A stretch of DNA of 64,000 nucleotides. It comes from Nocardiopsis sp. MG754419 (lineage in GTDB: Bacteria; Actinomycetota; Actinomycetes; Streptosporangiales; Streptosporangiaceae). Under the pieces are notes generated by a model that ran no database searches, was not told where the DNA came from, and saw only the letters and a list, made by a program, of their open reading frames with translations. Positions 17,523 to 42,977 of this stretch are shown in pieces. Numbering within the stretch: the first letter of the stretch is position 1; every line of letters begins with the position of its first letter. The stretch spans positions 1 to 64,000 of the forward strand of contig NZ_QOCZ01000002.1 of the NCBI RefSeq assembly GCF_018207095.1, read 5' to 3'. The position numbers and the translations under genes were made by a program.

Positions 17523-17748
17523 GGTCGTCCCCTGGGGGTGCCGGTGAAGTGAGCCGGTGGCTTGAGGTGCACGGTTCGCTTCGAGAGGAGCGGGGGTTCG
17601 GGGGTCGTCCCCTGGGGGTGCCGGTGAAGTGAGCCGGTGGCTTGAGGTGCACGGTTCGCTTCGAGTGGAGCGGGGGTTCGGGGGTCGTCCCCTGGGTGTA
17701 ACGGCGAAGCGAGCCGGTGCCTTCAGGCACACGACTCGCTTCGAGAGG
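17523..17748 (-). repeat. Three tandem 80-bp hairpin repeats abutting tRNA-Gly
   Basis: Three copies start at 17523, 17603 and 17683 with a period of exactly 80 bp. Copies 1 and 2 differ by about one base; copy 3 is diverged and runs into the 3' end of tRNA-Gly. On the tRNA strand each unit holds a hairpin. In copy 3 the outer stem is CGAAGCGAG (17705-17713)/CTCGCTTCG (17735-17743) and the inner stem GTGCC (17717-17721)/GGCAC (17726-17730). Copies 1 and 2 keep the outer stem with substitutions that are mostly tolerated as G-U pairs. They look like serial terminator or trailer hairpins downstream of the tRNA. Confidence 0.8.
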
Positions 17749-23923: not shown

Positions 23924-25318
23924 ATGGCCTCGGGAACGGTTCGGCGGCACACCCGTCGCGGCGGCGTCGCCGTCCTGGCGCTGATCGTGGCGGCGGTCTC
24001 CGCCGCTCCCGCCGCCGGTGCCGCCGACGCCCCCGACGACGTGAGTACCGGTGGGGGAGTCGAGCACCTGGCCAACGTCCCCAAACCCGCGGCGCTGGGG
24101 GAGTCCTACAACACCGACCTGGCCTTCACCGGAGACCACGTGATCGTCGGCAACTACGGGGGATTCACCGTCCACGACATCTCCGACCCCGCCGATCCGG
24201 TCGTGGTGGCCACGGTGGTGTGTCCCGGCGGCCAGGGGGACGTCACCGTCAGCGGCGACCTGCTCTACTTCTCCGTCGACTACCCCCGTGCCGGTGAGGA
24301 GTGCGGCGCCCCCGCGACCCCCGCCACCGACCCGGACGGGTTCGAGGGTCTGCGGATCTTCGACATCGCGGACAAGACCCGGCCCGAGTACGTGACGTCC
24401 GTGCGCACGGACTGCGGCTCGCACACCCACACGCTCGTCCCGGGGGAGGCCGAGGGGCGCGAGTACGTGTACGTGTCCTCGTACTCGCCCGACGCGAACT
24501 TCCCCCACTGTCGGCCGCCGCACGACAAGATCACGATCGTCGAGGTCCCGCTGGAGGACCCTGCCGCGGCCTCCGTGGTCGCCGAGCCCGTCCTGTTCCC
24601 CGACGGGGGCCACGACAGCACCACCGGCTGCCACGACATCACCGCCTACCCGTCCCGAGGGCTGGCCGCCGCGGCCTGCCTGGGCGACGGTCTGCTGCTC
24701 GACATCACCGACCCCGTGAGCCCGCGGGTCACCACGCGGGTCCAGGATCCGAACTTCGCGTTCTGGCACTCGGCGACCTTCACCGACGACGCCTCCCAGG
24801 TGATCTTCACCGACGAACTCGGCGGTGGAAGTGGTGCCACGTGCAATGAGGACGTCGGTCCCGAACGGGGCGCGAACGCGATCTACGCGATCGACGACGC
24901 GGGGGACGACCCGGAACTCGTGTTCCGGAGCTACTACAAATTGCCGCGTCATCAGTCCGAAACTGAGAACTGTGTGGCGCACAATGGATCGCTGATCCCC
25001 GTCGCCGGCGCGGATCTCTTCGTGCAGTCCTGGTACCAGGGCGGTGTGTCGGTCATCGACCTCGACGACCCCGAGCGGCCCGTCGAGGTCGGGTACTTCG
25101 ACCGTGGGCCTGCGGACCCGGAGGTACTGCGCACCGCGGGCTCGTGGTCGGCCTACTACTACAACGGCCACGTCTACTCGTCCGACATCGAACGCGGTCT
25201 GGACGTCCTCGCGCTCACCGATCCCCGATTCGACGGGGCCGAGAACGTGGTCCTCGACGAGTTCAACCCGCAGTCCCAACCGCGGGTGTCGTCCCGCCGT
25301 TCCAGGCACGGTGTGTAG
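23924..25318 (+). CDS. Secreted LVIVD-repeat protein, copy 1
   Basis: A 464-residue protein with a signal peptide (residues 1-34, ending '...AAPAAGAADA'). The mature part is a beta-propeller-like array of LVIVD repeats, for example 'GNYGGFTVHDISDPADPVVV' and 'GLRIFDIADKTRPEYV'. Conserved patches rich in His, Cys and Asp recur in all four copies: 'CGSHTHTLVPG', 'GCHDITAYP', 'FWHSATF', 'DELGGGSGATC', 'HNGSLIPV' and 'QSWYQGGVSVIDL'. The clustered histidines could bind a metal, but that is inference. It is complete and the most diverged of the four copies. It ends 'DEFNPQSQPRVSSRRSRHGV'. GGAAGGTGGG precedes ATG 23924. Confidence 0.85.
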   Translation: MASGTVRRHTRRGGVAVLALIVAAVSAAPAAGAADAPDDVSTGGGVEHLANVPKPAALGESYNTDLAFTGDHVIVGNYGGFTVHDISDPADPVVVATVVCPGGQGDVTVSGDLLYFSVDYPRAGEECGAPATPATDPDGFEGLRIFDIADKTRPEYVTSVRTDCGSHTHTLVPGEAEGREYVYVSSYSPDANFPHCRPPHDKITIVEVPLEDPAAASVVAEPVLFPDGGHDSTTGCHDITAYPSRGLAAAACLGDGLLLDITDPVSPRVTTRVQDPNFAFWHSATFTDDASQVIFTDELGGGSGATCNEDVGPERGANAIYAIDDAGDDPELVFRSYYKLPRHQSETENCVAHNGSLIPVAGADLFVQSWYQGGVSVIDLDDPERPVEVGYFDRGPADPEVLRTAGSWSAYYYNGHVYSSDIERGLDVLALTDPRFDGAENVVLDEFNPQSQPRVSSRRSRHGV

Positions 25319-25350
25319 CCGAATCGGGTCAGGTCGGCGGCGTGTGAACG

Positions 25351-25400
25351 AACATGTTTCTTTTGTTTCCCTCTATACATAATGATGTTGAGCTGTGTAC
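25351..25400 (+). promoter_or_regulatory. A+T-rich promoter-like stretch before LVIVD copy 2
   Basis: 'ACATGTTTCTTTTGTTTCC' followed by 'CTCTATACATAATGATGTTG' is far richer in A+T than its surroundings. It contains -10-like TATACA and CATAAT hexamers, 40-65 nt before ATG 25440. It suggests a separate promoter for copies 2 to 4. No precise -35/-10 pair can be fixed. Confidence 0.4.
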
Positions 25401-25439
25401 GTTCTTCCTGTTTCGCTCCATTCAGAACCAGGAGTACAC

Positions 25440-26744
25440 ATGGCGTCATCCCCCACCCACCCCCCCGCAAGGCGCCCGCTTCACCGCCGAGCCCTCACCG
25501 GGGTCTCCCTCGGTGCGGCAGCCCTCCTGACCGCGGGACTCCTGGGCCCCGCGGCCGCGTCCGCCGACGTCACCGCCTTCGAAAGCGACGCGGAGACCAG
25601 CTCCAACGTCTCCCACGTGGCCAACCTCCCCAAGTCCGAGGCCATGGACGACTTCAACTCGGACCTGGCGTTCACCGGGGACTACGCCATCGGTGGCAAC
25701 TACAACGGCTTCGTCATCTACGACATCTCCGAGCCGGAGTCCCCCGAGGTCGTCTCCGAGGTCCTGTGCCCGGGTGGTCAGGGCGACGTGTCGGTCAGCG
25801 GTGACCTGGTGTACTTCTCGGTCGACTACCCGCGTGCGAGCGACGAGTGCGGCGCCCCGTCGGTGCCCACCACGGACCCGAACGGGTTCGAGGGCATCCG
25901 GGTCTTCGACATCTCCGACAAGGCGGCCCCCGAGTACGTCGCCGCCGTGGCCACCGACTGCGGTTCGCACACCCACACCCTGGTGCCCGGCAAGGACGGC
26001 GCGCACGACTACGTGTACGTGTCCTCGTACTCGCCCAACGCGAACTTCCCGAACTGTCAGCCTCCGCACGACAAGATCTCCATCGTCGAGATCCCGCTCG
26101 ACGACCCCTCGGAGGCCGCCCTGGTCACCGAGCCGGTGCTGTTCCCCGACGGCGGTAACACCAACACCAGCGGGTGCCACGACATCACCGCCTACCCGGA
26201 GATCGACCTGGCCGCCGGTGCCTGCATGGGCGACGGCATCCTCATGGACATCTCCGACCCGGCCCACCCCGTGGTGACCGACGTCGTCCGGGACCCGAAC
26301 TTCGCCTTCTGGCACTCGGCGACCTTCACCAACGACGCCGGCACGGTGATCTTCACCGACGAGCTCGGCGGTGGCGGCGGCGCCATCTGTACCGAGGCCT
26401 ACGGTGTCGAGCGCGGCGCCAACGCCATCTACACCATCGGCGGCACCGACGACGACCCCGAACTGGGCTTCGAGAGCTACTACAAGATCCCGCGCGTGCA
26501 GACCGCCACCGAGAACTGCGTCGCCCACAACGGCTCGCTCATCCCGGTTCCGGGTCAGGACTTCTTCGTGCAGTCCTGGTACCAGGGCGGTGTGTCGGTG
26601 ATCGACTTCAACGACCCGAAGAACGACATCACCCGTGGACTCGACGTCCTGAAGATCGAGGACCCGCGTGTGCGCGCCGCCGAGCGCGTCACCTACGACG
26701 AGTTCAACCCCCAGTCGCAGCCGAGCTACCGTCCCGGCCGCTGA
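25440..26744 (+). CDS. Secreted LVIVD-repeat protein, copy 2, with 35-codon internal deletion
   Basis: A 434-residue paralogue of copies 1, 3 and 4 with a twin-arginine-containing signal region ('RRPLHRRALTGVSLGAAALL', cleavage near 'AAASADV'). The repeats and His/Cys patches are intact up to 'VIDFNDPKN'. The sequence then jumps directly to 'DITRGLDVLKIEDP', skipping the segment that in copy 3 runs from 'PKEIGFWDPDD' to 'NGHVYSS'. Compared with copy 3, 105 nt (35 codons) are missing in frame after 26624. This would remove most of one propeller blade, so folding may be affected. AGGAG precedes ATG 25440. Nucleotide identity to copy 4 is near complete in several tracts. Confidence 0.75.
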   Translation: MASSPTHPPARRPLHRRALTGVSLGAAALLTAGLLGPAAASADVTAFESDAETSSNVSHVANLPKSEAMDDFNSDLAFTGDYAIGGNYNGFVIYDISEPESPEVVSEVLCPGGQGDVSVSGDLVYFSVDYPRASDECGAPSVPTTDPNGFEGIRVFDISDKAAPEYVAAVATDCGSHTHTLVPGKDGAHDYVYVSSYSPNANFPNCQPPHDKISIVEIPLDDPSEAALVTEPVLFPDGGNTNTSGCHDITAYPEIDLAAGACMGDGILMDISDPAHPVVTDVVRDPNFAFWHSATFTNDAGTVIFTDELGGGGGAICTEAYGVERGANAIYTIGGTDDDPELGFESYYKIPRVQTATENCVAHNGSLIPVPGQDFFVQSWYQGGVSVIDFNDPKNDITRGLDVLKIEDPRVRAAERVTYDEFNPQSQPSYRPGR

Positions 26745-26805
26745 CCGACCCCACGAATCCCTCCCGGTGGCTCCTCCTGGGGAGTCAGGGCAAACGGGAG
26801 GACCA

Positions 26806-26831
26806 GGGGCCGCGGCGTTCGCCGCGGCCCC
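26806..26831 (+). terminator. Hairpin between LVIVD copies 2 and 3
   Basis: GGGGCCGCGGC (26806-26816) pairs with GCCGCGGCCCC (26821-26831) around GTTC. It lies 62 nt after copy 2. Confidence 0.6.
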
Positions 26832-26875
26832 ACCGCAGACCACCCCCGCCCTCCCCGCGATCCACAGGAGAAAGC

Positions 26876-28279
26876 ATGCCCGCAGCTTCCTCCGGGCGCG
26901 GAGGAATCCGGCGCTCGGCGGCCGTCGCACTCACCGCGGCGGCCACCCTGCTGACCGGACTCCTCGGCCCGGCGACCGCTCATGCCGACATCCCGCCGTC
27001 CGACAGCGTGACCAGCGACAACGTCGAGCACATCGCCAACGTGCCCAAGCCCGAGGCGGTCAGCAACACCAACTCGGACCTGGCGTTCAGCGGTGACTAC
27101 GTGATCGGCGGCAACTACGACGGGTTCGTCATCTACGACGTCGCCGACCCCGCCGACCCGCGGATCGTCTCCGAGGTCCTGTGCCCGGGCGGGCAGGGTG
27201 ACGTGTCGGTCAGCGGCGACCTGTTGTACTTCGCCGTGGACTACCCGGCGGCGAACGAGGAGTGCGGGGCCCCCGCGGTCCCGGTGACCGACCCGAACGG
27301 GTTCGAGGGCGTCCGGGTCTTCGACATCTCGGACAAGACCCAGCCCGAGTACGTCGCGGCCGTGCGCACCGACTGCGGCTCGCACACCCTCACCCTGGTG
27401 CCGGGCGACGACGAGCGCGAGTACGTGTACGTGTCCTCCTACGCCCCGGCGGCGGAGTTCCCGAACTGTCAGCCTCCGCACGACAAGATCTCCATCATCG
27501 AGGTGCCGCTCGACGACCCGGCCTCGGCCGCGGTGGTCAACGAACCCGTGCTGTTCCCCGACGGCGGCAACCACGACCAGGACGGTCTCCTGCGACCCAC
27601 CGAGGGCTGCCACGACATCACCGCCTACCCGGAGAAGGGCATCGCCGCCGGGGCGTGCATGGGCGACGGCATCCTCATGGACATCTCCGACCCGGTCGAG
27701 CCGGTCGTGACCGAAATCGTGCAGGACGAGAACTTCGCGTTCTGGCACTCGGCGACCTTCACCAACGACGCCGGAACGGTGATCTTCACCGATGAGCTCG
27801 GTGGCGGTGGCGCGGCCACCTGCACCGAGGAGATCGGACCCGAGCGCGGCGCCAACGCCATCTACACGCTGGAGGGCGAGGGCGCCGACAGCACCCTGGA
27901 GTTCGCCTCCTACTACAAGCTGGAGCGCCACCAGGGCGACCAGGTGTGCGTGGCGCACAACGGCTCCCTGATCCCGGTGCCCGGCAAGAACTACTTCGTG
28001 CAGTCCTGGTACCAGGGCGGCGTCGCGATCATCGACTTCAACGACCCGAAGAACCCCAAGGAGATCGGCTTCTGGGACCCCGATGACCGCATCGACCCCG
28101 ACATCGAGAACGGCAGCTCCTGGTCGGCCTACTACTACAACGGCCACGTCTACTCCTCGGACATGCGCCGGGGCCTGGACGTCCTGGAACTGAACGACCC
28201 GCGTCTGCGCCCGGCCGAACGCGTCACCTACGACGAGTTCAACCCGCAGACCCAACCGGTCTACCGCCCCGGCAGGTAG
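26876..28279 (+). CDS. Secreted LVIVD-repeat protein, copy 3 (complete)
   Basis: A 467-residue protein with signal peptide 'RRSAAVALTAAATLLTGLLG...ATAHAD' and LVIVD repeats such as 'GNYDGFVIYDVADPADPRIV' and 'GVRVFDISDKTQPEYV'. All conserved patches seen in copy 1 are present, including 'CGSHTLTLVPG', 'EGCHDITAYP' and 'QSWYQGGVAIIDF', and the segment missing in copy 2 is intact ('SSWSAYYYNGHVYSSDMRRG'). It carries a short insertion 'NHDQDGLLRPTEG' before the 'CHDI' motif. AGGAGAAAGC precedes ATG 26876. It is the best reference for the family in this window. Function is unknown; it is probably an extracellular or surface beta-propeller. Confidence 0.85.
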   Translation: MPAASSGRGGIRRSAAVALTAAATLLTGLLGPATAHADIPPSDSVTSDNVEHIANVPKPEAVSNTNSDLAFSGDYVIGGNYDGFVIYDVADPADPRIVSEVLCPGGQGDVSVSGDLLYFAVDYPAANEECGAPAVPVTDPNGFEGVRVFDISDKTQPEYVAAVRTDCGSHTLTLVPGDDEREYVYVSSYAPAAEFPNCQPPHDKISIIEVPLDDPASAAVVNEPVLFPDGGNHDQDGLLRPTEGCHDITAYPEKGIAAGACMGDGILMDISDPVEPVVTEIVQDENFAFWHSATFTNDAGTVIFTDELGGGGAATCTEEIGPERGANAIYTLEGEGADSTLEFASYYKLERHQGDQVCVAHNGSLIPVPGKNYFVQSWYQGGVAIIDFNDPKNPKEIGFWDPDDRIDPDIENGSSWSAYYYNGHVYSSDMRRGLDVLELNDPRLRPAERVTYDEFNPQTQPVYRPGR

Positions 28280-28294
28280 CACCCGCTCACCGGA

Positions 28295-28329
28295 CGGGGC
28301 GCCGCGCGTGCATCGCGCGCGGCGCCCCG
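28295..28329 (+). terminator. 14-bp hairpin between LVIVD copies 3 and 4
   Basis: CGGGGCGCCGCGCG (28295-28308) pairs perfectly with CGCGCGGCGCCCCG (28316-28329) around a 7-nt loop, 15 nt after the copy 3 stop. Confidence 0.7.
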
Positions 28330-28403
28330 CGGTGCACCCCCGGCCCGGCCCGTCGCGACGGACCGGGCCTCGATCGCTCCCCTCCACAACCGAAAAGAGG
28401 ACC

Positions 28404-29710
28404 ATGCGCACTCCCACGCGTCGTGTGGCGGCGTTCGCCGCGGCCGCGGCCACGGCGCTGCTGACCGGGCTGCTCGGCCCGGCGGCCGCCCACGCGGACA
28501 CCCCTCCCTCCGACGACATCAGCAGTGACCACGTCGAACTCGTGGCCAACGTCGCCAAGCCCGAGGCCGTGAGCAACGTCAACTCGGACCTGGCGTTCAG
28601 CGGCGACTACGCCATCGGCGGCAACTACGACGGGTTCGTCGTCTACGACATCTCCACGCCCGAGGACCCGCGGATCGTCTCCGAGGTCGTCTGCCCGGGT
28701 GGTCAGGGCGACGTCGCGGTCAGCGGCGACCTGCTCTACTTCGCCGTGGACTACCCGCGTGCGAGCGACGAGTGCGGTGCCCCGTCGGTGCCCACCACGG
28801 ACCCGAACGGGTTCGAGGGCATCCGGGTCTTCGACATCTCCGACAAGGCGGCCCCCGAGTACGTCGCCGCCGTGCCCACCGACTGCGGCGCCCACACCCT
28901 CACGCTCGTCCCCGGCAAGGACGGCGCCCACGAGTACGTGTACGCGTCCTCGTACTCGCCCCACGTGAACTTCCCGAACTGTCAGCCCCCGCACGACAAG
29001 ATCTCCATCGTCGAGATCCCGCTCGACGACCCCGCCTCGGCGGCCCTGGCGGCCGAGCCCGTGCTGTTCCCCGACGGGGGACACCGCTCGACCAGCGGCT
29101 GCCACGACATCACCGCCTTCCCCAGCGAGGACATCGCCGCCGCGGCCTGCATGGGCGACGGCGTGATGCTCGACATCTCCGACCCGCTGGAACCGGTCGT
29201 GACCGAGGTCGTCCAGGACCCGAACTTCGACTTCTGGCACTCGGCGACCTTCACCAACGAGGGCCGGAACGTCCTGTTCACCGATGAGCTCGGCGGCGGT
29301 GGCGCCCCCACCTGCACCGAGGAGATCGGACCCGAGCGCGGCGCCAACGCCATCTACGCGCTGTCCGGTGAGGGGGACGACACCACCCTCGAATTCCAGA
29401 GCTACTTCAAGATCGACCGCCACCAGGGCGACCAGGTCTGTGTCTCGCACAACGGCTCGCTCATCCCGGTTCCGGGTCAGGACTTCTTCGTGCAGTCCTG
29501 GTACCAGGGCGGTGTGTCGGTGATCGACTTCAACGACCCGAAGAACACACCTGGTCGGCGTACTACTACAACGGTTACGTCTACTCCTCCGACATCGAGC
29601 GGGGCCTCGACGTGATCAAGCTGACCGACCCGCGTCTGCGCGCGGCCGAGCGCGTCACCTACGACGAGTTCAACCCGCAGACCCAACCGGTCTACCGTCC
29701 CGGCCGCTGA
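28404..29710 (+). pseudogene. LVIVD-repeat gene, copy 4, frameshifted by a deletion
   Basis: It starts at ATG 28404 ('RTPTRRVAAFAAAAATALLTG' signal region) and reads as an intact paralogue for 381 codons to 'VIDFNDPKN' (29546). After that the frame continues only as 'TPGRRTTTTVTSTPP...' and stops at 29615. Two bases on, another frame resumes the family sequence: 'TWSAYYYNGYVYSSDIERG', '...DEFNPQTQPVYRPGR', stopping at 29710. Against copy 3, 61 nt are missing, which breaks the frame. The break falls at exactly the same point as the deletion in copy 2. The truncated product (403 residues) might still be exported. A sequencing or assembly error is an alternative. Confidence 0.75.
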
Positions 29711-29725
29711 TCCGGCGGGGACCGA

Positions 29726-29754
29726 GCGGGGTGGGGGAACCGTCCCCACCCCGC
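29726..29754 (+). terminator. Hairpin after LVIVD copy 4
   Basis: GCGGGGTGGGG (29726-29736) pairs with CCCCACCCCGC (29744-29754), 11 bp, 16 nt after the original family stop codon. It closes the LVIVD array. Confidence 0.65.
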
Positions 29755-29776
29755 ACCCATGAGATCCGTCATGGGT
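29755..29776. promoter_or_regulatory. Inverted repeat upstream of the ABC/two-component operon
   Basis: ACCCATGA (29755-29762) and TCATGGGT (29769-29776) form a perfect 8-bp inverted repeat with a 6-nt centre (GATCCG), about 78 nt before the ATPase start. Size and spacing suit a dimeric regulator such as the operon's own LuxR-type response regulator; binding is inferred. A second loose pair, TGGTCC...GGACCA, follows at about 29819-29844. Confidence 0.4.
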
Positions 29777-29853
29777 GGTCCTCCGCCCCGGTCACATCGG
29801 GCCGGTGACTAGTGCGCATGGTCCTCGGCACCTGATCGGACCAGGCTGGGGAC

Positions 29854-30837
29854 ATGCTCACGACGACGAGAACATCGGCCCCCGACCCCCCGACCGCGTC
29901 CGCCGTCCGGGTGCGCGACCTCGCGTGCTCCTACGGGGACGTCCGCGCCGTGCGCGGAGTCTCCTTCGACATCGTCCCCGGAGAGCTCTTCGCCCTCCTC
30001 GGCACCAACGGGGCAGGCAAGACCACGACCATCGAGGCGCTGGAGGGATTCCGGAACCCCACCGCCGGCACCGTCCGCGTCCTGGGGCTGGACCCCCGCC
30101 GGCGCCGCCGCGCGCTCCAGGGGCGGGTGAACGCCGTCCTGCAGGAGAGCGGCACCTTCGCCGACCTCACCGTCATCGAGACCATCGAGCTGGTCCGGCG
30201 TACATCCGGACGCCGCCGCGACCTGGACGAGGTCCTGTCGGCCGTCGACCTCACCGGTCGGGCCGGCGCCCGGGTCGGCCACTTGTCCGGGGGCCAAAAG
30301 CGCCGTCTGGACCTGGCCCTGGCCGTCGTCACCCGTCCCGAGGTGCTGCTGCTGGACGAGCCCACCACCGGCATGGACCCCGAGGCGCGCCGCACCGTCT
30401 GGGCCCTCATCGCCGAACTGATCCGTGAGGGCACCGCCATCCTGTTGACCACCCACTACCTGGAGGAGGCCGAGCGCCTCGCCGACCGGATCGCGGTGAT
30501 GCACCACGGTCGGATCGAGGTGGCCGGGACCCTGGACCAGGTCCTGGCCGGGCACGGCGACCGGATCTCCTTCCGGCTGGAGGGGAGCCCGCCGGAGGAT
30601 CCACCGGTCCTGCCCGGCGCCGAGGCCGTCGTCGAGGGGGAGCGCGTGACCTACACGGTCGACGGAGCCGACCACGCACGTCGGGCGCACCGGGCGATGG
30701 CGGCCCTGGGCACCTGGGCGGACCGGCACCGCCTGGACCTGCTCGACCTGGCCCTGCACCGTGCCTCACTGGAGGACGTCTTCCTCCGCGTCGCGGACGG
30801 ACACGAGATCCCCACCCCGACGGGAGTGAGCCGATGA
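29854..30837 (+). CDS. ABC transporter ATP-binding protein (DrrA type)
   Basis: A 327-residue cytoplasmic ATPase of an ABC-2 exporter. It shows Walker A 'GTNGAGKTTT' (about residue 50), Q-loop 'VLQESGTF', signature 'LSGGQKRRLDL', Walker B 'LLLDEPTTGMDP' and switch His in 'LLTTHYLEEAE'. A C-terminal domain (about 230-327) follows, as in DrrA/antibiotic-export ATPases. ATG 29854 opens the frame. Its stop overlaps the permease start by 4 nt (ATGA). It is followed by a histidine kinase and response regulator in the same operon, an arrangement often tied to stress- or drug-responsive export. Confidence 0.93.
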   Translation: MLTTTRTSAPDPPTASAVRVRDLACSYGDVRAVRGVSFDIVPGELFALLGTNGAGKTTTIEALEGFRNPTAGTVRVLGLDPRRRRRALQGRVNAVLQESGTFADLTVIETIELVRRTSGRRRDLDEVLSAVDLTGRAGARVGHLSGGQKRRLDLALAVVTRPEVLLLDEPTTGMDPEARRTVWALIAELIREGTAILLTTHYLEEAERLADRIAVMHHGRIEVAGTLDQVLAGHGDRISFRLEGSPPEDPPVLPGAEAVVEGERVTYTVDGADHARRAHRAMAALGTWADRHRLDLLDLALHRASLEDVFLRVADGHEIPTPTGVSR

Positions 30838-31658
30838 GCACCACGGACGCACCGGTCCGGGTCGGTCCGGCCCGCCAGATCCAGGTGTACTCGCGAGCCG
30901 AGCTCACCCTGTTCTGGCGCTACCGCACCGCCGTCTACTTCGCCCTGTTCCCTCTGGCCCTGGCCATGATGGGGCTGTTGCAGGCGGGGACGGAGATCGC
31001 CCCCGGGGTCGACGCGGGCGCCTACTTCACCGCGGGCTCGCTGATGCTGCCCCCGCTGTTCCTGTCCATCATGCACCTGACCAACGTGGTCACCTCCCGG
31101 CGCGAACAGTTCGTCCTCAAACGCCTGAGGGTGTCCGGCACCCCGGCCACGGTGGTGTTCGGGGCGTTGATCGTCTCGGTGCTGGTGGTCACGGCGGTCA
31201 TCTCGCTGGTCATCGGGGTGGTCCTGCTGCGCCGGTACGACCTGGCACCGGCCGATCCGCTCCTGGTGGTGCTGCCGATCGTCCTGGTGACGGTGGCGGT
31301 CTCCCTGTTCTCGATCGCCTTCACCCGGCTGTGCCGCAACGCCGAGAGCGCCCAGATGATCTGTATGGTTCCTCTGATGCTCTTCTACCTGCTGAGCGGG
31401 ATGGCGTTCCCCCTGGCCTCGCTTCCGGACCGCCTGGCCGATCTGGCCCGCTTCCTCCCGGGCGCCCCCGGTGTCGACATCGTCACCAGCGCCTACTTCG
31501 GTCGCGACTTCACCGGCGCGGGCGACGGCACCCGGGTGCTCGCCGGTGCGGAACTGTGGGCCGCCGCCGTGCCGGGGCTGCTGGTGATCCTCGCCTGGCT
31601 GGTGCTCTCCGCCTTCCTCGTGCGTTTCGTGCGGTGGGACCCGCGAGGCACGCGGTGA
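30834..31658 (+). CDS. ABC-2 type permease
   Basis: A 274-residue integral membrane protein with about six hydrophobic helices ('FALFPLALAMMGLLQAG', 'VVFGALIVSVLVVTAVISLV', 'VTVAVSLFSIAFTRL', 'MICMVPLMLFYLLSGMAFPL', 'LLVILAWLVLSAFLV'). 'FVLKRLRVSGTPATVVFGAL' and 'LSGMAFPLASLPD' are typical of the ABC-2 membrane family. It partners with the upstream ATPase; the exported substrate is unknown. It overlaps both neighbours by 4 nt, so the four genes are translationally coupled. Confidence 0.9.
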   Translation: MSTTDAPVRVGPARQIQVYSRAELTLFWRYRTAVYFALFPLALAMMGLLQAGTEIAPGVDAGAYFTAGSLMLPPLFLSIMHLTNVVTSRREQFVLKRLRVSGTPATVVFGALIVSVLVVTAVISLVIGVVLLRRYDLAPADPLLVVLPIVLVTVAVSLFSIAFTRLCRNAESAQMICMVPLMLFYLLSGMAFPLASLPDRLADLARFLPGAPGVDIVTSAYFGRDFTGAGDGTRVLAGAELWAAAVPGLLVILAWLVLSAFLVRFVRWDPRGTR

Positions 31659-32791
31659 ACGCCTCCACCGACGACGAGCGTCTGCGCCGCACCCGATGGG
31701 TGGTGGTGCGCACGCTCGCCGGCATGGCCTCGGGACTGCCGCTCATGGTGCTGCTCCAGTGGTACCTGAGCGGCACCCCGGGCCCGGCGGGACTGGTCAC
31801 CGCACTCCTGCCGGCCACGGCGGCGGGCGCGCTCGCGCTCTGGCTGACGCTGCGCCACGCGCTGGCCCTCGGGGAACGGCCCCTGCCCCTGTACGCGTCC
31901 TCCTTCGTGGCGTCGGTCGCCGCGGTGTGGATCCTGTTGCCGGGGGCGGCGGCGCTGGTGGTGCCGACGGTCTGGTGGGGGATGACGACCCCGGCCGTGC
32001 CCCGTCGGTGGAGCGCGCCCACCGGCGTGGTGCTGTTGGCGCTGCCCTGGGCGCACGCCGCGCTCGCCGGTGCACCGACGCCCTCCCCGCTCTGGTTCCC
32101 GGTCATGCTCGTCCTCGCCGGGGTGATGCTCACCGGGCACCGGATGAACCTGCGGATGTGGGAACTGTCGCGGGAGGTGGTGGCCGGCCGCCACGTCCGC
32201 GAACGGCTCGCGGCCAGTGAGGAGCGCCTGCGCATCGCACGCGACATCCACGACCTGCTCGGACATCGTCTGTCCGGGATCGCGGTCCGCAGCGAACTCG
32301 CCGCGCGACTGGCCGAGGCCACCCCGGAGCGGGCCGCCCACGAGATGCGGATCGTCCAGGACGAGGCCCGCCGCGCGTTGCGCGAGGTGCGCTCCACCGT
32401 GAGCGGCTACCGCGACGTCGACCCCGCCGAGGAACTGGAGGGCGCCCGTGAGGTGCTCGCCGCCGCCGGGGTCCACCTCACCGTCACCGGTGATCCCCGG
32501 GACATCCCCGCGCCCCTGCGCACCACAGCGGCCTGGGTCGTCCGCGAGGCGGTGACCAACGTCGTCCGCCACAGCGAGGCCCGCCACTGTGAGATCACCC
32601 TGGACGCCGACGGTGCGTTCACCCTCCAGGTCGTCAACGACGGAGCCCCCGCACACCGGGGGAGCGGTAGTGGTCTGCTCGGCCTGACCCAACGGGTCGC
32701 GGCGGAGGGCGGCACACTGGAGGCCGGCGCTGAGGACGGCGGGCGCTTCCGTCTGAGCGTGGTCGTTCCCCGAGCGGAGGTGGCACGGTGA
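31655..32791 (+). CDS. Sensor histidine kinase (NarL/DesK type)
   Basis: A 378-residue membrane kinase. Residues about 20-150 hold four to five membrane helices with short loops, so it probably senses within or near the membrane. A HisKA_3 domain follows with phospho-acceptor His199 in 'ARDIHDLLGHRLSG', then a HATPase domain with 'VREAVTNVVRHSEA' (N box) and 'GSGSGLLGLTQRV' (G box). GTG 31655 is chosen because it overlaps the permease stop (GTGA), although the frame is open upstream. The overlap with the response regulator start makes it the direct cognate kinase. Confidence 0.92.
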   Translation: MNASTDDERLRRTRWVVVRTLAGMASGLPLMVLLQWYLSGTPGPAGLVTALLPATAAGALALWLTLRHALALGERPLPLYASSFVASVAAVWILLPGAAALVVPTVWWGMTTPAVPRRWSAPTGVVLLALPWAHAALAGAPTPSPLWFPVMLVLAGVMLTGHRMNLRMWELSREVVAGRHVRERLAASEERLRIARDIHDLLGHRLSGIAVRSELAARLAEATPERAAHEMRIVQDEARRALREVRSTVSGYRDVDPAEELEGAREVLAAAGVHLTVTGDPRDIPAPLRTTAAWVVREAVTNVVRHSEARHCEITLDADGAFTLQVVNDGAPAHRGSGSGLLGLTQRVAAEGGTLEAGAEDGGRFRLSVVVPRAEVAR

Positions 32792-33393
32792 TCCGGATCC
32801 TCCTGGCGGAGGACGCGCACCTGGTGCGCGGGGCCATCGCCGCCCTGTTGGACCTGGAACCCGATCTGGAGGTGGTGGGCCAGACCGGCCGGGGCGACGC
32901 GGTGGCCGACCTGGTCGCACGGCACCGACCCGACGTGGCGGTGCTCGACGTCGAGATGCCCGGCACCGACGGGCTGAGCGTCGCGGAACTCCTGGCGGAG
33001 ACCGCCCCCGACTGCGCCGTCGTGGTGCTCACCGGGTTCGGACGCCCCGGCTACCTGCGCCGCGCCGTCCGGGCGGGGGTGCGGGGGTTCCTGCACAAGG
33101 ACGCGCCCGTGACCGAGCTGGCCCAGGCCGTGCGCGTCGTGCACGCGGGCGGGCAGAGCATCGACCCGGAGCTGGCCACGGCGGCGATGACCGCGGGGGT
33201 GAGCCCGTTGACCCGGCGCGAGACCGAGGTCCTGCGCGCCCTGTCCCGGGGGGTCGGTTTCACGGAGGTCGCGCGCGCCCTCGACATCGCCGAGGGCACC
33301 GTCCGTAACCACGTGTCCGCGGCCATCGCCAAGACCCGCGCCGAGAATCACATCGGCGCCGTCCGTGTCGCCCAGGACATGGGCTGGCTCTGA
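32788..33393 (+). CDS. LuxR/NarL-family response regulator
   Basis: A 201-residue regulator. The receiver domain (1-120) has the acidic pair in 'LLAEDAHLV', phospho-acceptor Asp54 in 'VAVLDVEMPGTDG' and Lys in 'FLHKDAPV'. The C-terminal LuxR-type helix-turn-helix (about 137-197) includes 'LTRRETEVLRALSRG' and 'EVARALDIAEGTVRNHVS'. The GTG start overlaps the kinase stop. Its likely target is its own ABC operon; the inverted repeat at 29755-29776 is a candidate site. It ends 4 nt from the convergent Rpn-like gene. Confidence 0.93.
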   Translation: MIRILLAEDAHLVRGAIAALLDLEPDLEVVGQTGRGDAVADLVARHRPDVAVLDVEMPGTDGLSVAELLAETAPDCAVVVLTGFGRPGYLRRAVRAGVRGFLHKDAPVTELAQAVRVVHAGGQSIDPELATAAMTAGVSPLTRRETEVLRALSRGVGFTEVARALDIAEGTVRNHVSAAIAKTRAENHIGAVRVAQDMGWL

Positions 33394-33397
33394 GCCG

Positions 33398-40871: not shown

Positions 40872-42977
40872 GTGCGCAAGCCGCCCGTCGACCCCACAGT
40901 TCCCGGCCGCCGTCTCGGTCGGGCCGGTCTGCTCCTGGCCCAGTTCCTGGTGCTGGTCCTGTTCGCGGCCCTCGTCGGCCGCCTGTGGTACCTCCAGGTG
41001 CCCATGGCCGAGCACTACCGCGAACTGGCCGTGGCCAACCACCACCAGCAACTGGTCGTGCCCGCCACCCGGGGCCAGATCCTGGACTCCGCGGGGCGAC
41101 CCCTGGTCAACAACCGCACCGAACTCGTCGTCTCGGCGGACTACCACGAGATCCAGGCGATGGAGGACGGCGGCGAGAAGGTCCTGTCGGACCTGGGGGA
41201 GGTCCTCGACGTCCCCCTGGAGGAACTGCGCCAGCGCATGCGCCTGTGCGGTCCCGAGGTGGAACGCCCCTGCTGGCCCGGTTCGCCGTACCAGCCCGTC
41301 ACCCTCGCCGAGGGGGTCGAGGGGCCCGTGGCCCTCCAGATCATGGAGAGCGCCGACGACTTCCCCGGGATCACCGCGCAGGCCCAGGCCGTGCGCGAGT
41401 ACCCGCAGGGCGAGCACGCGGGCCAGATGCTCGGCTATCTCCAGCCCGTGACCCAGGAGGAGCTGGACGCGCGCGAGGAGCTGCGCACCCGCTTCACCGG
41501 CATCGACCAGGTGGGCCGTGACGGCCTGGAGGCGGTCTATGACTCCGAACTGCGGGGCACGGCGGGCCTGCGCACCCTGGGCGTCAACAACCACGGCGAG
41601 GTCATGGACGTGATCTCCGACGAGCTGCCCGTGGCCGGTCGCCACCTCGTGACCCACATGGACATCGGGGTGCAGAAGGCCGCCGAGAAGGCGCTCGCCG
41701 AGGGCATGGCCGCGGCCCGGCCCAAGTACCGGGCCGACTCCGGCGCCGCCGTCGTCCTGGACGTCACCAACGGCGGTGTGGTCGCCATGGCCAGCCTGCC
41801 CACCTACGACCCGGGTATCTGGCAGGGCGGCATCGACCAGAAGACCTTCGACGAGATGCTCAGCGAGGAGGCCGGGGAACCGCTGCTCTCCCGCGCCGTC
41901 CAGGGCACCTACCCGCCCGGCTCGACCTTCAAGGTGTCGTCGATGTCGGCCGCGGTCGAGAACGGCTACGCGTTGCGCAGCACCTACGCCTGCCCCGGTT
42001 CGGTCACTCTCGCCGGGCAGAGCTACGAGAACTACGCCGGCGCCGGTCAGGGCAGCATCACCCTGAAACAGGCCATCATCGCCTCCTGCAACACCGTCTT
42101 CTACAACTTCGGCTACCAGATGTGGCTCAAGGACGGCGGACTGCACCCGGACGGCGACCCAGCCGAGGACATGGCGGAGATGGCCCGGGGCTACGGGTTC
42201 GGTTCGCCCACCGGGGTGGACCTGCCCTACGAGACCGGTGGCCGTATCCCCGACCGCGAGTGGAAGCGCACCTTCTGGGAGGAGACCCGGGAGGTCAACT
42301 GCGACCGCGCCGAGAACGGCTACCCGGACATCGCCGAGACCAACCCGGCGCACGCCGCCTACCTCAAGCAGCTCGCCCACGAGCACTGTGTCGAGGGTTT
42401 CGAGTGGCGCGCCAACGAGGCCATCAACTTCGCGATCGGCCAGGGCGACGTCCTGGTCAGTCCGCTCCAGCTGGCCTCCGCCTACGCCGCCATCGCCAAC
42501 GGCGGGACGTTGTACGAGCCTCGCGTGGCCAAGGCGATGGTCGCCGCCGACGGCTCCGAGGTGGAGCCCATCGAGCCGACCATCAAGGGCGAGGTGCCCG
42601 TCAGCGACGAGACCATCCGCTACCTGCAGGAGGCACTGACCGAGGTCACCACCTCCGGTACCGGTGGCGGGGCCTTCGGCGACTTCCCGCAGGACCAGGT
42701 GGCCGTGGCGGGCAAGACCGGTAGCGCCGACGCCGAGCAGCGCCAGGTGTCGTCCTGGTTCGCCTCCTACGCCCCGGCGGACGACCCGCAGTACGCGGTG
42801 GTCGTCCTGGTCTCCCAGGGCGGTACCGGTGGTGAGACGGCGGCGCCGATCGCCCGCAAGATCTACGAGGCCATCTACGGCCTCGGGGACGGCAAGGAAC
42901 TGCTCCCGGGCGGCGAGCCCTACTCCGACCTGCCGACCGTGCGCACGGACGGTTCCATCGACCCCCTGGAGCGGTGA
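40872..42977 (+). CDS. mrdA: Penicillin-binding protein 2 (elongation-specific transpeptidase)
   Basis: Class B PBP that cross-links peptidoglycan with RodA. The 701-residue protein has one N-terminal membrane helix (about 15-40), a PBP dimerisation domain (about 55-220) and a transpeptidase domain. The three active-site motifs are present: SxxK 'GSTFK' (Ser351, Lys354), SxN 'SCNT' in 'IIASCNTVFYNFG', and 'VAGKTGSAD' (KTG). The GTG start at 40872 matches the family start. It overlaps rodA by 4 nt. Confidence 0.95.
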   Translation: MRKPPVDPTVPGRRLGRAGLLLAQFLVLVLFAALVGRLWYLQVPMAEHYRELAVANHHQQLVVPATRGQILDSAGRPLVNNRTELVVSADYHEIQAMEDGGEKVLSDLGEVLDVPLEELRQRMRLCGPEVERPCWPGSPYQPVTLAEGVEGPVALQIMESADDFPGITAQAQAVREYPQGEHAGQMLGYLQPVTQEELDAREELRTRFTGIDQVGRDGLEAVYDSELRGTAGLRTLGVNNHGEVMDVISDELPVAGRHLVTHMDIGVQKAAEKALAEGMAAARPKYRADSGAAVVLDVTNGGVVAMASLPTYDPGIWQGGIDQKTFDEMLSEEAGEPLLSRAVQGTYPPGSTFKVSSMSAAVENGYALRSTYACPGSVTLAGQSYENYAGAGQGSITLKQAIIASCNTVFYNFGYQMWLKDGGLHPDGDPAEDMAEMARGYGFGSPTGVDLPYETGGRIPDREWKRTFWEETREVNCDRAENGYPDIAETNPAHAAYLKQLAHEHCVEGFEWRANEAINFAIGQGDVLVSPLQLASAYAAIANGGTLYEPRVAKAMVAADGSEVEPIEPTIKGEVPVSDETIRYLQEALTEVTTSGTGGGAFGDFPQDQVAVAGKTGSADAEQRQVSSWFASYAPADDPQYAVVVLVSQGGTGGETAAPIARKIYEAIYGLGDGKELLPGGEPYSDLPTVRTDGSIDPLER

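Follow-up and report, generated by a model that had tools for sequence, protein, structure and literature searches.

Short-read assemblers that use a de Bruijn graph either guess or break the assembly where a repeat reaches the length of the reads (PMC5771137), and when gaps are closed, the rates of misassembly can be high (PMC9575681). The false joins and losses described for such assemblies (PMC5771137, PMC9575681) are like the losses discussed below in two respects: the suspected error coincides with the end of a repeat that is as long as a constant of the assembly, and it is private to one draft, where it disrupts genes that relatives have in intact form. They are unlike them in that the losses here amount to only 61, 105 and about 112 nt and are unmarked by Ns, and for both reasons resemble real deletions.

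Four genes arranged in tandem make up the region of interest, and all encode LVIVD-repeat proteins according to their profile scores against Pfam PF08309, a family described in PMC2447325. Each of the four window copies passes the gathering cut-off of the family (24.0-29.1 bits, with the cut-off at 20.2 bits), but only a single weak repeat stretch is recognised in each protein. A comparison by sequence with solved chains gives only two matches, both weak and covering about 40 residues, to a haloalkylphosphorus hydrolase. The other known process with which the locus can be compared is gene conversion, or concerted evolution, in tandem paralogues. Copies 2 and 4 are identical to each other over two tracts, one of 96 and one of 99 nt, and the paralogues of relatives likewise share tracts, of up to 239 nt. 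Gene conversion accounts for such a tract, but not for the deletions next to it.

The window, by which we mean the whole stretch of 64,000 nt that was analysed, belongs to C2, a contig of 163,075 nt in a Nocardiopsis draft genome of 6.4 Mb and 474 contigs. The features of the array are listed in Table 1.

Table 1. Coordinates of the LVIVD-repeat array and of its identical tracts and suspected joints (window positions)
Feature	Position	Strand	Evidence or remark
Copy 1, LVIVD-repeat paralogue, complete	23924..25318	+	ORF; PF08309 26.8 bits
Copy 2, LVIVD-repeat paralogue, apparent 105-nt in-frame deletion	25440..26744	+	PF08309 29.1 bits; five-relative comparison
Copy 3, LVIVD-repeat paralogue, complete	26876..28279	+	ORF; PF08309 28.2 bits
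Copy 4, LVIVD-repeat paralogue, apparent 61-nt frameshifting deletion	28404..29711	+	PF08309 24.0 bits; five-relative comparison
Copy 4 reading frame	broken ORF end 29615; native stop 29711	+	ORF analysis
96-nt exact tract, copy 2 side	25854..25949	+	= 28779..28874
96-nt exact tract, copy 4 side	28779..28874	+	= 25854..25949
99-nt exact tract, copy 2 side; probably a single k-mer of the assembly, common to two paths	26526..26624	+	
99-nt exact tract, copy 4 side	29448..29546	+	= 26526..26624
Suspected false joint, copy 2	26624..26625	+	105 nt absent vs 5/5 relatives
Suspected false joint, copy 4	29546..29547	+	61 nt absent vs relatives

Results

The two junctions

The original prediction was that copies 2 and 4 are perfectly identical over 99 nt and that each then loses DNA at the very next base, in frame in copy 2 and with a frameshift in copy 4. 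All of this is borne out. The identity is exact and maximal, with an extension of 0 nt at both ends; the loss in copy 2 starts at the base after 26624 and keeps the frame, that in copy 4 starts at the base after 29546 and shifts it, and each is of identical size against all five relatives compared (N. listeri, genome G023, is without a copy 4, and a paralogue takes its place in the comparison at 29546). Across the whole window, these two junctions are the only sites where all five relatives have at least 15 nt that are absent from the draft.

Apart from the losses, both genes look healthy. Past its joint, the shifted frame of copy 4 continues through intact conserved sequence (TWSAYYYNGYVYSSDIERGLDVIKL...) up to the normal stop, and a comparison of reading frames and codons found no further stop, frameshift or loss in copies 2 and 4. 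Between copy 2 and its N. listeri orthologue, 57 synonymous and 42 non-synonymous codon differences are seen over 433 aligned codons. Were the deletions real, they would have arisen very recently. The junction sequences themselves contain no simple or short repeats, and microhomology at the breakpoints, judged by eye against the sequences of relatives, amounts to at most 1-2 nt and is uninformative. The 96-nt tract, which also joins copies 2 and 4, has no deletion adjoining it.

Three observations were made beside these. The only other site common to three relatives is near 42,890 (about 42886-42898), where 18-22 nt are present in three of the five and absent from the window. At 17523-17665 the window has a 63-nt exact repeat with a spacing of 80 nt, and relatives have a similar tandem repeat, spaced by 80-81 nt, at an apparently corresponding place; ARAGORN found no tRNA genes at this repeat (17523-17603). 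In the LVIVD arrays of Nocardiopsis and Streptomonospora (window 23924-29711 and loci L036-L057), identical tracts between paralogues reach 239 nt, a sign of ongoing gene conversion.

The missing DNA in relatives

The extra DNA was found in relatives that align across the joints (60 genomes searched), including two that are assembled into two contigs each (G007 and G015). The deleted form occurs in 0 of 128 different homologous segments taken from relatives, all of which retain one or both of two flanking motifs at the usual spacing (34-37 residues for the first motif and 72-76 residues for the second). An alignment of 14 sequences of actinobacterial homologues, the most distant of which has 51% identity, places eight invariant residues within the deleted part. 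A search for the missing segments elsewhere in the genome found only the four known copies among the sampled contigs, of which the short ones (C300-C319, about 400-440 nt) are N except for two long ones and could hide the missing segments.

N. listeri is the closest relative at this locus, and a counterpart of copy 4 is absent from its alignment. At about 29711-33393, copy 4 and the ABC-transporter and two-component genes that follow it are unmatched in the syntenic N. listeri region, and from about 29710 to 33394 there is no alignment with G007 or G015. This part of the window (about 29711-33393) appears to be a lineage-specific segment.

A ceiling of 99 nt in the draft

Where a de Bruijn graph branches, the contigs that meet have a single word of fixed length in common, and any word longer than this is present only once. 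Maximal exact repeats were surveyed in 1.92 Mb of the draft, comprising 73 contigs or contig parts. The longest are four pairs of 99 nt, with none longer in these 1.92 Mb, and the next are 98, 96 and 81 nt. Two of the four pairs are contig termini (the start of C3 with the end of C6, and the start of C49 with the start of C6); the other two are internal, one being that of copies 2 and 4 and the other lying at an unrelated locus on contig C32. Because of this ceiling and the shared contig ends, the simplest reading of 99 nt is that it is the word length used in the assembly. Loci of relatives, from a few kilobases to 100 kb in size, contain exact repeats of 107, 126, 148, 176 and 239 nt, and so the ceiling derives from the assembly rather than from the genus. 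N. ganjiahuensis has a natural 99-nt tract without a deletion; thus, the evidence lies not in the length by itself but in the ceiling, the shared contig ends and the recurrence.

A second case

The internal pair on C32 is exact over 99 nt (C32:15661-15759 and C32:16208-16306) and lies in genes unrelated to the LVIVD array. Directly after C32:15759, coding DNA that is present in seven relatives is absent from the draft, and the reading frame of a conserved gene is broken at the loss. The size of the loss is about 112 nt (108-114 nt from the spacing of matches in the seven relatives, and about 112 alignment columns when six of the seven are compared). The second 99-mer lies within a spacer, beside a gene that we take from its translation to be typA, where relatives carry unrelated sequence. 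No paralogue is involved in this pair, and a biological reason for a 99-nt piece of a gene in the spacer is not evident. We read C32 15661-16306 as a second assembly artefact, in which a spurious copy would have been placed in the spacer and a conserved gene broken. Taking both loci together, private losses are found exactly at the right ends of three of the four internal 99-mers, the fourth being the one in the non-aligning spacer.

Signs of joining are also present elsewhere in the draft. The order of the contigs, whose lengths fall but with much longer contigs interspersed, and N runs of 8, 22 and 2 nt (at C39 15085, C40 14950 and C44 14789, respectively) suggest that contigs were joined after assembly, and unmarked joins are plausible. 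These three N-gap sites were also considered as further cases of the same kind and were rejected; they have the look of hairpin or homopolymer dropout and do not carry the 99-nt signature.

Discussion

We put the probability that both deletions are assembly artefacts at roughly 94%, on account of the 99-nt ceiling, the overlaps of contig ends, the recurrence on C32 and the intact genes in relatives, all of them strong but indirect evidence from sequence. The pattern is characteristic of a graph assembly with k=99 that was misjoined at shared k-mers, and the organism itself probably has complete copies 2 and 4. Among the explanations offered originally, an assembly error at the edge of a repeat is thus the one that gains strong support, with 99 nt as a constant of the assembly and the same signature at C32.

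The following course of events would produce the joints. The genome would have been built with a de Bruijn graph in which 99 nt is the shared word, so that a longer word would never be present in two places. The tract common to copies 2 and 4 would truly extend over at least 99 nt, through ordinary homogenisation of tandem paralogues; a true tract of this size is to be expected because of the long tracts in relatives and the 96-nt tract between the same two copies. The graph would then branch at the 99-mer common to both. We infer that the software step that dropped bases was a later one, of joining or gap closing, which would link the left and right pieces while omitting 105 nt of copy 2 and 61 nt of copy 4. 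What speaks against an artefact is that a plain k=99 graph would run on into the true sequence past the shared word. The 96-nt tract was joined without error, as expected for a length below k, and is therefore no test of the artefact.

The deletions might instead be real and specific to the strain, the result of gene conversion between copies 2 and 4 in which aborted repair or template switching left two deletions that begin where the converted tract ends. Gene conversion does occur in the array, given that long identical tracts between paralogues are common in relatives, and the 99-nt tract shared here results from ordinary homogenisation of the tandem paralogues. However, real deletions require two independent events at one base and a kind of loss that is seen in no relative, and they leave unexplained both the signature on C32 in unrelated genes and the ceiling with its contig-end overlaps of equal length. 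We consider them very improbable. Nor is the suggestion of a recombination or replication-slippage hotspot supported: the C32 pattern arises without paralogues, no relative has the deletion, simple repeats are lacking at the junctions and the genes are otherwise intact.

Readings in which the genes are being switched off or lost are, in our judgement, barely credible. Tandem genes for similar, probably secreted proteins are of a type that is able to phase-vary, and a frameshift such as that in copy 4 is something that phase variation could give. Yet if both genes had been turned off by phase variation or by replication slippage at a local repeat, a simple repeat would be looked for at the junctions, and neither has one; moreover, the right ends differ, copy 2 remains in frame and the loss of eight invariant residues could not be reversed by slippage. 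The phase-variation-like decay of the original prediction is likewise unsupported, also in view of the 128 segments from relatives without a deleted form, the otherwise intact genes and the same pattern at C32. It is just as hard to believe in ordinary pseudogene decay of redundant paralogues in the lineage of this draft. Copy 4 may be dispensable, having no counterpart in N. listeri, but neither copy 2 nor copy 4 has acquired any other stop, frameshift or loss, and decay leaves it unexplained that both left ends fall at the edge of the 99-mer.

With an assembly artefact as the preferred reading, the paired deletions are very probably not a real biological feature. The combination of a hard ceiling on the length of exact repeats with losses at the ends of repeats of exactly that length is a test that needs only the assembly, and it can be used on other drafts. 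The present draft would hold unmarked joints that delete coding DNA beside 99-nt repeats, and its apparent pseudogenes need to be checked before they are given a biological reading.
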